A stretch of 64,000 bases of DNA from Tabrizicola thermarum (GTDB lineage: Bacteria; Pseudomonadota; Alphaproteobacteria; Rhodobacterales; Rhodobacteraceae): NCBI RefSeq assembly GCF_003574395.1, contig NZ_QMJY01000083.1, forward strand, positions 186,001-250,000, read 5' to 3'. Under the pieces are notes generated by a model. That model ran no database searches. It was not told the DNA's origin and was given only the letters and a program-made list of their open reading frames with translations. Both the position numbers and the translations under genes were made by a program. This document shows positions 5,016 to 9,754 of this stretch, piece after piece. Within the stretch, counting starts at the first letter, position 1. The number at the start of each line of letters is the position of its first letter.

Positions 5016-5280
5016 CGCCCTGCCGACCGATCCGCCCGCCCCGGCGGCGCGGTGCACCCGGCTCGGCCAGCGCCTGGCGCAGCACGGCGGACATCGGATG
5101 ATCGGGGGCTGCATCCGCGTAGGTGCCGATCAGCACACGGACGGACTCGGGCACCGACTGTCCCACCGGAATCGACAGCGCCCAGTCCATGAAGATCGAC
5201 CGGCATTCCCCCGCGGTGATGCCGTCGATCCGGTAACTTTCCCGCACCAGCCCCTTCGGGTCGGCCTCAGCCAGATCCAT
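5005..5280 (-). CDS. Conserved hypothetical protein downstream of glnE
   Basis: A 91-residue soluble protein with no signal peptide or membrane segment. It begins MDLAEADPKGLVRESYRIDG; a central SIFMDWALSIP segment and a basic tail (RRRGGRIGR) are its visible features. The start at 5280 lies inside the glnE coding region (14-base overlap), so it is probably co-transcribed and translationally coupled with glnE. The 3' end overlaps eda tail to tail. I do not recognise a functional family; position suggests a link to nitrogen control but nothing in the sequence proves it. Confidence 0.65.
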   Translation of the reverse strand: MDLAEADPKGLVRESYRIDGITAGECRSIFMDWALSIPVGQSVPESVRVLIGTYADAAPDHPMSAVLRQALAEPGAPRRRGGRIGRQGASD

Positions 5281-8068
5281 CGCCTGCCTCTCCGTCCTCT
5301 TCCCCGTCCCTGCCCCCGACCAGCCGGTCCACCGCGGCCCGGGTCGTCTCGACCGCCCGTTCCAGCATCCCGGCCAGCTCTGCCTCTCCCTCGGCCCCGG
5401 TTTCGCGCAGGATGAAACTCCGCCCGCCCTCGCCAAGGCTGTCGAACTCAAGCGGCCGCTCGCTCAGCAGCCGTGAAGCCGCATGCAGGCGCCAGAACAG
5501 CCTGTAGGCGGATGTCAGCGCCTGCACGTCCGAATCCGGCATGACAGAGCCCTTCGCCGCCGCCAGCTGACGCTCGACGCTGCGCGCCGGGCTGCCCGCG
5601 ATCAGCGCGCAGGTCTGGGCGGCAAGCTCGATGTCCATCATCCGCCCCGGCCCGTTCTTCGCCTCCCAGACCGCTTGCGCCGGTTTCGCCGCCTGTAGCC
5701 TTGCGCGCATCTCCGCCACATCGCGGCGGACCGTTGCACCCTTGCCCTTCGCGACCAGAAGCGCGCGACGGAACGCCTCCACCTCTCCGGCCAGGGTCGG
5801 CTCTCCCGCCAGCACCCGCGCGCGGGTCAGCGCCAGATGCTCCCAGGTCCAGGCCTCGGTCTCCTGATAGGTGATGAAACTTTGCAGACTTGTCGCCACC
5901 GGCCCCGCCCGCCCCGAGGGGCGCAGCCGCATGTCGACCTCGTAAAGCCGCCCCTCCGGCATCTGCGCCGTCAGGGCAGTGACCAGCGCCTGGGTCAGTC
6001 GGGCGTAATAGGGTCGGGTCGCCAGCGGCCGGGCGCCGTCCGACGTCTCCACCCCCGCCGCATCATAGATCACGATCAGGTCCAGGTCCGACCCCGCGTT
6101 CAGCCGTGCCGCACCGATCGAGCCCATGCCCAGCACCACCGCCCCGCGCCCCGGCATGGCCCCGTGCTTGCGCGCGAAATCGGCGGTGACCTCGTCCCAG
6201 ATCACGCCCACCACCGCCTCGGCCAGATCGGCATATTGCTTGCCGGCCTCGAACCCGTCGATCAGCCCGCGCAGATGATGCACGCCGATCCGGAAATGCC
6301 ATTCCTTCATCCAGCGCCGCGCCATGTCGAGCCGCGCCTCATAGTCCGGCGCCAGCGCCAGCCGGGCCGCAAGATCGGGGCGCAACCCCGCCAATCCGGG
6401 CCAGTCGCCCCAGAAACTGCCGCCGATCACTCCATCCAGAACGCTTGCGTTGCGCGACAGATAGCGCGCCAGGCCAGGGGCCGAACCTGCGATGTCCACG
6501 ATCAGCTCGATCAATGCAGGGTTCGCCTCGAACAGCGCAAAGATCTGCACACCGGCCGGCAGACCGGCCAGAAACCCGTCCAGCGCCACCAGCGCCTCGT
6601 CGGGATTGGCCGCCCGCGCCAGTTCGCGCAGAAGCCGAGGGCGCAGCCTGCGGAAGATCGCCCGCGCCCGGTCAGAGCGCAGCGCCGGATAGCCTTCCCA
6701 GCCGCGCGTGATCTCGCGGGCGGCTTCGGACAATTCCGGCCCCGCCTCCGTTTCGGCGGGTGAAAAGAAGCCTTCGGTCAGCCGCTCGGTCCGGTTCAGC
6801 CGGTCCAGAAGATCCCGTCGGAAGTCGGCCTCGGTCTGGCCGCAGAAGGCCGCGATCCGCGCGACACCTTCAGCCGTCGCGGGCATCGTGTGGGTCTGCG
6901 CGTCATTCACCATCTGCAACCGATGCTCGACCTCGCGGTGGGCGCGGTAGAGGTCGGTCAGTTCCGCCGCCACCTCGGGCGGGATCCAGCCCTTCGCCGC
7001 CAGCGCCGCAAGCCCCCCGACTGTCGTCCGGTCCCGCAACGACGGGTCGCGCCCTCCCGCGATCAGCTGCCGGGTCTGGGTGAAGAATTCGATCTCGCGG
7101 ATTCCCCCTGCCCCAAGTTTCATGTTGTGGCCTTCCACCGTGATCGGCCCATGCAGCCCGCGATGGTCGCGGATGCGCAGCCGCATGTCATGGGCATCCT
7201 GGATCGCCACGAAATCCAGATGCTTGCGCCAGACAAAGGGGGTCAGCGTCTTGAGAAACCGCTCGCCCGCCGCCAGATCGCCGCCGCAGGGCCGCGCCTT
7301 GATATAGGCCGCGCGTTCCCAGGTGCGGCCCTCGGCCTCGTAATAGGCTTCGGCCGCGCCCATCGACAGGCACACGGGCGTCACGCCGGCATCGGGACGC
7401 AGCCGCAGGTCTGACCGGAACACATAGCCATCGGTCGCATCCGACAGGATCGCCGTCATCCGGCGCGTGACCTTGATGAAACTCGCCCGTGCCTCCTGCT
7501 CCTCGCCCGGGTAGCGGGTTTCATCGAAAAGGCAGATCAGGTCGATGTCCGAAGAATAGTTCAGCTCTCCCGCACCCATCTTCCCCATCGCCAGCGCCAC
7601 CATGCCCCCCGCCGTCGCGGCATCCTCCGGGGTGGCGCCGGGCAGCTTGCCCCGGCGGATCTCCTCGGCCACCAGCAGCGTCAGCGACAGATGCACCGCG
7701 CGGTCCGCCAGTTGCGTCAGCGCGCCGGTCACCTGTTCCAGCGACCATGCCCCGGCCAGATCGCACAGCGCCACCACCAGCGCGACGCGCCGCTTCGCCT
7801 CGCGCAGCGCCAAGGGCAAGGCCTCGATCCCGACCGCATCCAGCCCGGCCCGGATCGCCGCAAGCGCCGCCTCGGGATCATCCACCGCCGAGCGCAGCCA
7901 GTCCTGCTCGCGCAGGATCAGATCGCGCAGATAGGGGCTGCACCCCGCCGTGGCTGCCAGAAGGTCCAGAACCCCCGGCTCGAAGCCGTCCAACAGGGAC
8001 CGCAGGTCGGCGGCGGACGCTTGGTCAAAGGCAATGGGCAGGCGGCGGATACGAGAGGCAAGCGTCAT
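5267..8068 (-). CDS. glnE: Bifunctional glutamine synthetase adenylyltransferase/deadenylase
   Basis: The 933-residue enzyme adds or removes AMP on glutamine synthetase in response to PII and glutamine. Two nucleotidyltransferase domains are visible. The N-terminal deadenylase half carries GELNYSSDIDLICLFD (about residue 170) and the C-terminal adenylylase half carries AARLNAGSDLDLIVIYD (about residue 660). GlnD/PII-UTase-like helical regions connect them. The length matches the family. It is followed by the overlapping small gene at 5005. Upstream lies the DUF2852 gene, divergently transcribed across 226 bases. Confidence 0.95.
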   Translation of the reverse strand: MTLASRIRRLPIAFDQASAADLRSLLDGFEPGVLDLLAATAGCSPYLRDLILREQDWLRSAVDDPEAALAAIRAGLDAVGIEALPLALREAKRRVALVVALCDLAGAWSLEQVTGALTQLADRAVHLSLTLLVAEEIRRGKLPGATPEDAATAGGMVALAMGKMGAGELNYSSDIDLICLFDETRYPGEEQEARASFIKVTRRMTAILSDATDGYVFRSDLRLRPDAGVTPVCLSMGAAEAYYEAEGRTWERAAYIKARPCGGDLAAGERFLKTLTPFVWRKHLDFVAIQDAHDMRLRIRDHRGLHGPITVEGHNMKLGAGGIREIEFFTQTRQLIAGGRDPSLRDRTTVGGLAALAAKGWIPPEVAAELTDLYRAHREVEHRLQMVNDAQTHTMPATAEGVARIAAFCGQTEADFRRDLLDRLNRTERLTEGFFSPAETEAGPELSEAAREITRGWEGYPALRSDRARAIFRRLRPRLLRELARAANPDEALVALDGFLAGLPAGVQIFALFEANPALIELIVDIAGSAPGLARYLSRNASVLDGVIGGSFWGDWPGLAGLRPDLAARLALAPDYEARLDMARRWMKEWHFRIGVHHLRGLIDGFEAGKQYADLAEAVVGVIWDEVTADFARKHGAMPGRGAVVLGMGSIGAARLNAGSDLDLIVIYDAAGVETSDGARPLATRPYYARLTQALVTALTAQMPEGRLYEVDMRLRPSGRAGPVATSLQSFITYQETEAWTWEHLALTRARVLAGEPTLAGEVEAFRRALLVAKGKGATVRRDVAEMRARLQAAKPAQAVWEAKNGPGRMMDIELAAQTCALIAGSPARSVERQLAAAKGSVMPDSDVQALTSAYRLFWRLHAASRLLSERPLEFDSLGEGGRSFILRETGAEGEAELAGMLERAVETTRAAVDRLVGGRDGEEDGEAGDGSG

Positions 8069-8199: not shown

Positions 8200-8218
8200 A
8201 TGTGAATTATCTTCACAT
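8200..8218. promoter_or_regulatory. Operator 1 upstream of the DUF2852 gene
   Basis: ATGTGAA-TTATC-TTCACAT, a perfect 7+7 inverted repeat with a 5-base spacer. It ends 5 bases before a possible -35 box (TTGCAC, 8224-8229). Its arms are identical to those of the second site at 8258-8276. Confidence 0.6.
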
Positions 8219-8223
8219 ACCCC

Positions 8224-8252
8224 TTGCACATTGGCCAGCGCAGGACCATCTA
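8224..8252 (+). promoter_or_regulatory. Candidate sigma-70-like promoter for the DUF2852 gene
   Basis: TTGCAC (8224-8229) is followed after 17 bases by a weak -10 candidate CATCTA (8247-8252). The predicted transcription start would fall inside the second inverted repeat. The -10 matches poorly, so the exact placement is uncertain. Confidence 0.35.
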
Positions 8253-8257
8253 GCCTC

Positions 8258-8276
8258 ATGTGAAAGACATTCACAT
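8258..8276. promoter_or_regulatory. Operator 2 upstream of the DUF2852 gene
   Basis: ATGTGAA-AGACA-TTCACAT has the same arms as operator 1 and a different spacer, with its centre 58 bases downstream. It would overlap the transcription start, the classic position for a repressor. The cognate regulator is not encoded in the window. Confidence 0.6.
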
Positions 8277-8294
8277 AACGATGGAGACCCGCCG

Positions 8295-8780
8295 ATGATG
8301 ACCACCACCGACACCGCCCGGCCTGGCGGGTTTCGCAGCGCCCTTCACCGCGGCGAAGACTGGCTTGATGCCAAGGGCAAATGGGCCTGGATCGCCGCGA
8401 TGATCCTGGGCTTTGTCTTCTTCTGGCCCGTGGGACTTGCCCTTCTGGCCTACATGATCTGGGGAAAGCAGATGTTCTCACGTTCCTGCGGCCACCGCCG
8501 CGCCCATGGCCAGGGCCATGACCACCACTGGGGCCGTCACGCGATGCGGGCCGCCCAGCCCACCGGCAATCGCGCCTTCGACAGCTACAAGGCCGAAACG
8601 CTGCGTCGCCTGGAAGAGGAACAGGAGGCGTTCGAGGCCTTCCTCCAGCGCCTGCGCGCCTCGAAGGACAAGACCGAGTTCGACGCCTTCATGGAAGACC
8701 GGGCGCGCGCCGGCATGGCCGAGAATGTGACCGACACCGCGCCCAAGCCTGAAACCGGCGCCCGTCCCGGCGAATACTGA
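8295..8780 (+). CDS. DUF2852 membrane-anchored protein
   Basis: A 161-residue protein of the DUF2852 family. After a short N-terminus, WLDAKGKWAWIAAMILGF leads into one or two hydrophobic segments (about residues 28-60). A His/Arg-rich stretch follows (HRRAHGQGHDHHWGRH, about 66-82), then a charged predicted coiled coil (AETLRRLEEEQEAFEAFLQRL) and an acidic tail. The histidine cluster could bind metal, which is inference. Two adjacent ATG codons (8295, 8298) follow GGAG. The family has no established function. The twin operators immediately upstream show that it is tightly regulated. Confidence 0.75.
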   Translation: MMTTTDTARPGGFRSALHRGEDWLDAKGKWAWIAAMILGFVFFWPVGLALLAYMIWGKQMFSRSCGHRRAHGQGHDHHWGRHAMRAAQPTGNRAFDSYKAETLRRLEEEQEAFEAFLQRLRASKDKTEFDAFMEDRARAGMAENVTDTAPKPETGARPGEY

Positions 8781-8926: not shown

Positions 8927-9754
8927 ATGCGCCACTCGCTTCCCCTGACGCCCCAGTTCTATGTGACGGCGCCCCAGCCCTGCCCCTACCTGCCGGGGCG
9001 GATGGAGCGCAAGCTGTTCACCGCGCTTCAGGGCGAACACGCGCAAAAGCTGAACGACACCCTGTCCAAGCAAGGGTTCCGCCGCAGCCAGAACGTGCTC
9101 TACCGTCCCTCCTGCGCGGAATGCTCGGCCTGCCTGTCGGCGCGGATCCGCGTCGCGGATTTCCAGCCCTCGCGGACGCAGAAGCGGATCCTCAAGCGGG
9201 TCAGTCACCTGCGCCGCAACGCGACCAGCCCCTGGGCGACCGAAGACCAGTTCGCGCTGTTCCGCCGCTATCTCGATCATCGCCACGCCGACGGCGGCAT
9301 GGCCGACATGGACATCTTCGAATTCGCCGCGATGATCGAGGAAACCCCGATCAAGTCCCGCGTGATCGAATACACCCGCCCCCCGCGCGAGGGGGAACGG
9401 GGTCGCCCGCTGGTTGCCGTCTGTCTGACGGACGTCTTCGATGACGGGCTGTCGATGGTCTACAGCTTCTACGACCCGGACTTCCCCAACCTCAGCCTTG
9501 GCACCCATGTGATCCTGGACCACATCGCCATCGCGCGCGAGGCGGGACTGCCTTACGTCTACCTCGGCTACTGGGTCCCCGGCAGCCGCAAGATGGGCTA
9601 CAAGGCCGGGTTCTCGGCACTGGAGATCTACAAGGGCGGCCAATGGGTGCCGGTGGGCAACGCAGCCGACCACAGCGCCGACCTGCATCCGCTTTCGGTC
9701 GACCCGATCGCCGAACAGGTCGCCCGGATCAGCCTGCCGGACACGCGCCTGTAA
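8927..9754 (+). CDS. bpt: Aspartate/glutamate leucyltransferase (N-end rule)
   Basis: The 275-residue aminoacyl-tRNA protein transferase moves leucine from Leu-tRNA to proteins with N-terminal Asp or Glu, marking them for ClpS/ClpAP. It has the ATE N-terminal region with a cysteine cluster ([16 protein letters not shown], about residues 59-74) and the C-terminal GNAT-like part ([29 protein letters not shown]). Earlier annotations call such genes ate, arginyltransferase. The stop codon abuts the GTG start of the VOC gene, so the two are likely coupled. Confidence 0.9.

Follow-up and report, generated by a model that had tools for sequence, protein, structure and literature searches.

Several regulators of the TetR family, among them QacR, SlmA and CgmR, bind overlapping palindromes as two dimers, one on each of two opposite sides (excerpts of PMC6018408 and PMC4486848). 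Proteins of the DUF2852 family have been recorded in other settings: bll7160 of Bradyrhizobium diazoefficiens is raised when oxygen is low (log2 2.5 for the protein, 2.1-fold for the transcript) and by 4.9-fold in bacteroids, and carries no mark as a FixK2 or NifA target in the available portions of PMC6515984, while in Brucella suis the level of a DUF2852 protein drops in a mapB (tamB) mutant (excerpt of PMC6377625). The same portions of these two papers name no regulator of DUF2852, and the passages of open-licence literature that were searched yielded no description of a TetR–DUF2852 regulon.

The subject of this analysis is a stretch of 64,000 nucleotides from Tabrizicola thermarum (the window), in which two palindromic boxes with the same arms flank the promoter of a DUF2852 gene. 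Comparison of sequences across genomes shows that the boxes are real and strongly conserved, and assigns them to a likely regulator gene. We consider it highly probable that they are operators of a single, unlinked TetR-family repressor encoded beside ppk2 on contig C75, two dimers of which would keep the DUF2852 promoter shut until released by a ligand or signal.

Twin boxes at the DUF2852 promoter

The features of the locus, in window coordinates, are as follows.

5267..8068, minus strand: glnE (GlnE, PF03710), the divergent neighbour, not a proposed target
8200..8218, plus strand: putative operator site 1, ATGTGAA-N5-TTCACAT, centred at about -50 relative to the predicted start site
8223..8229, plus strand: -35 region CTTGCAC (TTGCAC at 8224-8229), read from the sequence
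8245..8252, plus strand: -10 region ACCATCTA (CATCTA at 8247-8252), with a spacer of 17 from TTGCAC
8258..8276, plus strand: putative operator site 2, ATGTGAA-N5-TTCACAT, spanning the predicted transcription start
8283..8286, plus strand: GGAG, the likely ribosome-binding site of DUF2852, read from the sequence
8295..8780, plus strand: the DUF2852 target gene, 161 aa (PF11014, E 2.8e-43, 147.2 bits against a cut-off of 22.5)
8927..9754, plus strand: the next gene downstream, a member of the arginyl/leucyl-tRNA-protein transferase family (bpt/ate; ATE_N/ATE_C)

That two perfect ATGTGAA-N5-TTCACAT repeats flank this promoter, as an earlier sequence-only reading proposed, is exact: the two 19-bp inverted repeats stand at 8200-8218 and 8258-8276, 58 bp apart from start to start, between glnE and the DUF2852 gene. 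They are the only perfect copies in the 3.65 Mb genome; the next-best matches carry two mismatches, and the reversed control pattern has no match anywhere in the genome. A whole-genome search with the degenerate pattern ATGTNAA-N5-TTNACAT gave no further copy with fewer than two mismatches, and a wider regulon in the window genome was rejected. The three sites with two mismatches to the exact pattern fall within stop-to-stop frames of 365-376 codons; in GC-rich DNA long open frames are commonplace.

The arms resemble the half-sites TGTGA...TCACA, as would be the case were the boxes sites for a regulator of the CRP/FNR type. The CRP consensus is TGTGA-N6-TCACA, whereas the spacer in the box is N7, and on this ground a CRP-type site was rejected; moreover, a single gene of the genome carries the box, which is not what a global regulator would show. 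The chance that the boxes belong to this class is practically negligible.

Conservation was followed through the genus, the family (a Rhodobacteraceae sample of 149 genomes, one per genus) and the class (taken as Alphaproteobacteria, a sample of 240 genomes). Within the genus, 30 of 32 genomes carry DUF2852, and 29 of these 30 loci have one exact box or more; in the remaining locus, L024, the boxes are slightly altered. The exact pattern is found in 89 of the 149 family genomes, nearly always as a single copy or one pair per genome, with no match to the reversed control in any; it lies upstream of DUF2852 in all 30 of the family loci that were opened (30 of the 89 genomes with an exact box). 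Three of the 240 class genomes contain the exact pattern, every one immediately 5' of DUF2852. An extra, unlinked perfect site in one genome (G159, C1:899296) was rejected as a second target, for it lies between gene ends and not at a promoter. The sequence-only reading had allowed for two adverse outcomes, namely that the motif is absent upstream of orthologous DUF2852 genes, or that it is frequent and unlinked to promoters; the motif is present at those genes and is not frequent elsewhere.

The most reliable set comprises the DUF2852 promoters of 132 family genomes, out of 133 with the gene (G126, at a contig end, was dropped). A box is present in all 132, and in 116 it is a twin; the remaining 16 have a single good box (11/12 fixed bases or better), which in 15 cases lies within a 25-bp extended palindrome. 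The earlier proposal that the boxes are twin operators through which one regulator controls the gene is supported. Twin spacing is narrowly distributed: it is 58 bp in 58 of the 116 and 59 bp in 48, with 57 bp in three, 60 bp in two, 70 bp in two, and 62, 63 and 69 bp in one each. The full score of 12/12 fixed bases is reached by site 1 in 105 twins and by site 2 in 109. Strictly perfect sites number nine of 116 for site 1, which is mostly ATGTAAA-like, and 85 of 116 for site 2; both boxes are strictly perfect in only seven twins, that of the window genome included.

The DUF2852 product appears to be a membrane protein with one helix and, at the C terminus, a helical part that is conserved. 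In an alignment of 26 relatives the hydrophobic helix is conserved, as is the helical region at the C terminus; the histidine cluster to which the sequence-only reading drew attention is not, the histidine-rich stretch varying among the relatives as a basic/His loop. The predicted model is of low confidence (mean pLDDT 61.8), and the protein has no match in NCBIfam. A second, weaker or partial DUF2852 match occurs in G049, G063, G081, G094, G095, G103, G117, G147 and G171, in several cases only a few hundred bases from the first.

A candidate regulator beside ppk2

The regulator was expected to lie outside the window, and it is there that a candidate was found. In 20 of the 29 class loci read (27 of the 29 are from outside the family) a TetR-family gene stands directly 5' of DUF2852, on the same strand and with the operator between them; the intervening sequence is mostly ATGTnAATGT-N5-ACATTnACAT. 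Three of these linked class TetR proteins were scanned: all contain TetR_N and TetR_C_33, and none matches a named NCBIfam regulator at cut-off (best 42 bits against 250).

The window genome has its own orthologue, unlinked to DUF2852, at G000:C75:139202-139804. This protein scores 272 bits with a profile of the class proteins that was built without it, and 308 bits with another of which it is a member; the second-best protein in the genome has 105 bits to the TetR profile. Its identity is 62-63% to the two closest of the linked TetRs compared and 41-52% to 14 others, and both domains are above their cut-offs (TetR_N 51 bits against 24, TetR_C_33 52.6 bits against 26.8). Among known structures the best sequence matches to the profile are the TetR-family entries PDB 3on2 and 3cjd, at 95.8 and 66.5 bits; the proposed orthologues score far higher, at 270-370 bits. 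A second TetR gene of similar type, L189 (G000:C1:3773-4261), has 105 bits to the profile.

A candidate regulator gene with the site at its own promoter, as the sequence-only reading anticipated, is found in most class tetR loci but in none of the family loci examined. In 20 of 28 class tetR loci a box (at least 10/12) lies no more than 200 bp from the tetR start, in many cases overlapping the ATG, and in 19 of the 28 it scores 11/12 or better, a value reached by none of 560 shuffles. (There are 29 class tetR loci, of which L281 is without a start; the 28 counted include two from the family, L279 and L280, and two weak matches, L282 and L283.) None of the 30 family tetR loci examined, the window genome's included, has a box within 200 bp of the tetR start.

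On C75 the tetR gene adjoins ppk2, and 26 of the 30 family tetR loci examined adjoin ppk2 on the same strand. In G088 a single cluster runs hydrolase-ppk2-tetR-operator-DUF2852-RDD-bpt; in the window genome C75 carries hydrolase-ppk2-tetR, and DUF2852-bpt lies in the window, beside glnE (the hydrolase was named by eye). The bpt/ate gene at 8927..9754 serves as a marker of synteny with the tetR-DUF2852 cluster in G088 (L361), and the G088 cluster looks like the older arrangement. A weaker box (at least 10/12) was observed at five of 28 ppk2 starts, against one in 1,400 shuffles; two of these weak boxes overlap the start codon and one directly precedes an ATG. A tie between polyphosphate metabolism and the TetR-DUF2852 circuit is possible. 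In G034, G049, G077 and G090 the tetR match has an in-frame stop and DUF2852 is kept; in these genomes the regulator is possibly decaying.

By their distribution, TetR, the boxes and DUF2852 appear to travel together through the Rhodobacteraceae and some relatives beyond. Of the 149 family genomes, 134 have TetR (E <=1e-40) and 133 have DUF2852; 131 have both, 13 have neither and five are discordant (Fisher 3e-14, with ancestry ignored). Three of the discordant genomes have TetR only (G050, G149, G150) and two DUF2852 only (G129, G178); four are 73-84% complete and G050 is 91% complete. Only one of the 89 genomes with an exact box is without TetR, and this is G178, at 73% completeness. In the class, DUF2852 is present in all 28 genomes with a TetR of at least 200 bits; a TetR at 200 bits is missing from 11 of the 39 genomes with DUF2852, and DUF2852 therefore does not need TetR.

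Among these 39 class genomes, 29 promoters were read besides the window's, nine lower-scoring ones (five TetR-less, four TetR-bearing) being left out. The box, at 11/12 or 12/12, is present in all 23 promoters from TetR genomes, and in none of the six read from the 11 TetR-less genomes (best 7-8/12). The probability of this contrast is about 2e-6 if the genomes are independent, but this figure, like the Fisher value, overstates independence because the genomes share ancestry. The six TetR-less, box-less loci (L175, L176, L181, L183, L184, L185) suggest a different control of the same gene.

It might be asked whether the boxes are bound by some other regulator, their link to TetR being accidental. 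The window genome's tetR is without a box, and the connection between TetR and box is drawn from sequence. However, most linked class loci have a box at both the tetR and the DUF2852 promoter, the two genes are co-inherited, and the six loci that lack TetR lack the box as well; we consider another regulator very improbable. In the window genome the C75 TetR appears to be dedicated to a single target.

Promoter geometry and two architectures of the putative operators

The combination of TTGCAC with CATCTA 17 bp further on puts the predicted transcription start at about 8259, inside site 2; in the window a gap of 4 bp separates site 1 from the CTTG of the -35 region. The family consensus, derived from 109 promoters, is CTTG[A/C][A/C] followed at about N16 by CC[C/G]ATCT. 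(The 109 are the 116 twins minus five outside 57-60 bp and minus G069 and G146, in which the stretch searched for TTG was too narrow.) The C preceding TTG is kept in 98%, TTG itself being the criterion for inclusion, and the two C before the -10 hexamer, which were not selected for, are kept in 84% and 88%; the conservation of the hexamer is partly by construction, since it was picked as the best fit among three spacers.

Both the window promoter (8223-8252) and the family consensus resemble promoters of RpoH, the heat-shock sigma factor, which in Sinorhizobium meliloti read CTTGAA-N15-16-CCTATAT and CTTGCC-N15-16-CCTATCT (excerpt of PMC4843759). When the 109 promoters were compared with CTTG-N15-16-CCTATNT, for which TTG and the hexamer had served as the means of alignment, CTTG and CC.AT.T proved common; the family differs from S. 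meliloti in the third base of the -10 heptamer, which is mostly C/G and not T. The likeness makes a heat-shock-type sigma factor a reasonable lead, to be held with caution, as RpoH-type motifs overlap those of sigma-70 (excerpt of PMC3616915).

The -10 region of the window is without the sigma-70 consensus, and site 1 abuts the -35 region, a conserved position (full score in 105 of 116 twins) that would fit an activator; the same TetR might then activate from site 1, or have a dual role. Against this, site 2 spans the predicted start, an operator over the transcription start being the usual position for a repressor, the 25 loci with linked tetR carry only the downstream operator, and TetR proteins are mostly repressors. 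Activation is, in our judgement, quite unlikely. Site 2 could also be transcribed, and might work at the RNA level by forming a hairpin in the 5' leader; but site 1, of the same sequence, is 5' of the promoter, both sites are symmetric, and their positions relative to promoter elements are almost fixed, which leaves the hairpin extremely unlikely.

Operators differ in form between loci with linked and with unlinked tetR. Among 169 loci (a set with duplicated genomes, in which linked means within the fetched flank of 1.5 or 4 kb) there are 130 twins, none with tetR in the flank; the 25 loci with linked tetR include no twin, 21 having an extended operator and four a single box. Of the 14 loci with neither linked tetR nor twin, six are extended and eight are of neither type, these eight including the 69-bp pairs of L126 and L130; 19 of the 130 twins would also count as extended at the loose threshold. 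For the non-redundant family set a tetR no more than 2 kb away on one contig was taken as linked (G035, G177 and G045, at 3.5, 6 and 10 kb, count as unlinked); here twins are found in 115 of 122 unlinked genomes as compared to one of 10 linked (G046, an intermediate with 63 bp).

The extended operator can be read as a pair of 19-bp boxes shifted by 6 bp against each other, and the bases that such overlap predicts are largely found in the 28 extended operators (A at position 12 in 96%, T at position 14 in 78%). An offset of 6 bp amounts to 0.57 turn and the mean distance between twins, 58.35 bp, to 5.56 turns, so that the opposite-face relation is the same in the overlapping and the split operators. 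The agreement may be due to chance, since the geometry of the promoter can by itself set the spacing of the twins.

The sequence-only reading saw in the spacing the geometry of a repressor bound at two sites, possibly with looping; looping as the meaning of this geometry is not supported. That the same TetR works by looping the DNA, or by forming tetramers between sites 1 and 2, would accord with a pair of strong sites whose distance varies little (58-59 bp in 106 of the 116 twins of the family) and with the Jannaschia loci L126 and L130, where the distance is 69 bp, one turn more. Short DNA loops, however, normally need whole turns, and 58-59 bp is 5.5-5.6 turns, a half-integral value; the whole-turn spacing of a looping repressor is not found in the window, where 58 bp, at 5.5 turns, places the two boxes on opposite faces of the helix.

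Distances from box to promoter are nearly fixed as well. In the 104 unique twins that remain after removal of duplicate sequences, site 1 is 5 bp from CTTG in 90, and CTTG is 34-35 bp from site 2 in 100; anchoring to the promoter therefore explains the 58-59 bp spacing equally well. Compensation between these two distances, considered as proof of a selected box-to-box distance, was set aside as weak: the permutation P, with ancestry ignored, is 0.0006 for the 104 twins and 0.06 once one outlier is left out. The longer spacings (69 bp in L126 and L130; 69 or 70 bp in G042, G115 and G175, where either of two overlapping boxes could be the one to count) are suggestive of phase keeping, but 54 bp in L127, 62 bp in G140 and 63 bp in G046 break the phase. 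Looping or tetramer formation is unlikely.

A more far-reaching scenario, conceivable although doubtful, is that a compact operator of boxes offset by 6 bp was pulled apart to flank the core promoter when tetR became unlinked, with the phase kept; the dimers would then clamp an RpoH-type promoter, and PPK2 or polyphosphate would form part of the circuit.

The proposed circuit and known systems

The reading that we prefer is repression by TetR from both boxes. Without a signal, TetR dimers would occupy the two boxes, one beside the -35 region and the other over the transcription start, and RNA polymerase would be kept off the DUF2852 promoter. A ligand of TetR_C_33, or a membrane or stress signal, would free TetR from the boxes, and how strong the response is may depend on a stress sigma factor. 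We infer each of these elements: the binding of TetR, repression as opposed to activation, the two dimers and relief by ligand.

By these means a widespread orphan membrane protein gains a proposed regulator, together with a precise operator and a circuit that lends itself to testing. The loci also form a natural series, from linked tetR with overlapping boxes, by way of intermediates, to unlinked tetR with split boxes, which should be useful for studying how operator and repressor can separate without loss of specificity.

As a TetR regulon the system is not categorically new; what sets it apart as a variant is the splitting of the operators and a regulator that is unlinked and seemingly confined to one target. 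Like TetR_C_33 repressors, the candidate has a helix-turn-helix and a C-terminal domain above the Pfam cut-offs, a putative palindromic operator and, in most class tetR loci, a site that looks autoregulatory; unlike them, it is here unlinked to its target, and two operators flank one promoter. The operators at linked tetR genes, if read as a pair of 19-bp boxes with a 6-bp shift, may resemble those of QacR, SlmA and CgmR, whereas the boxes of the window stand 58 bp apart with the promoter between them.
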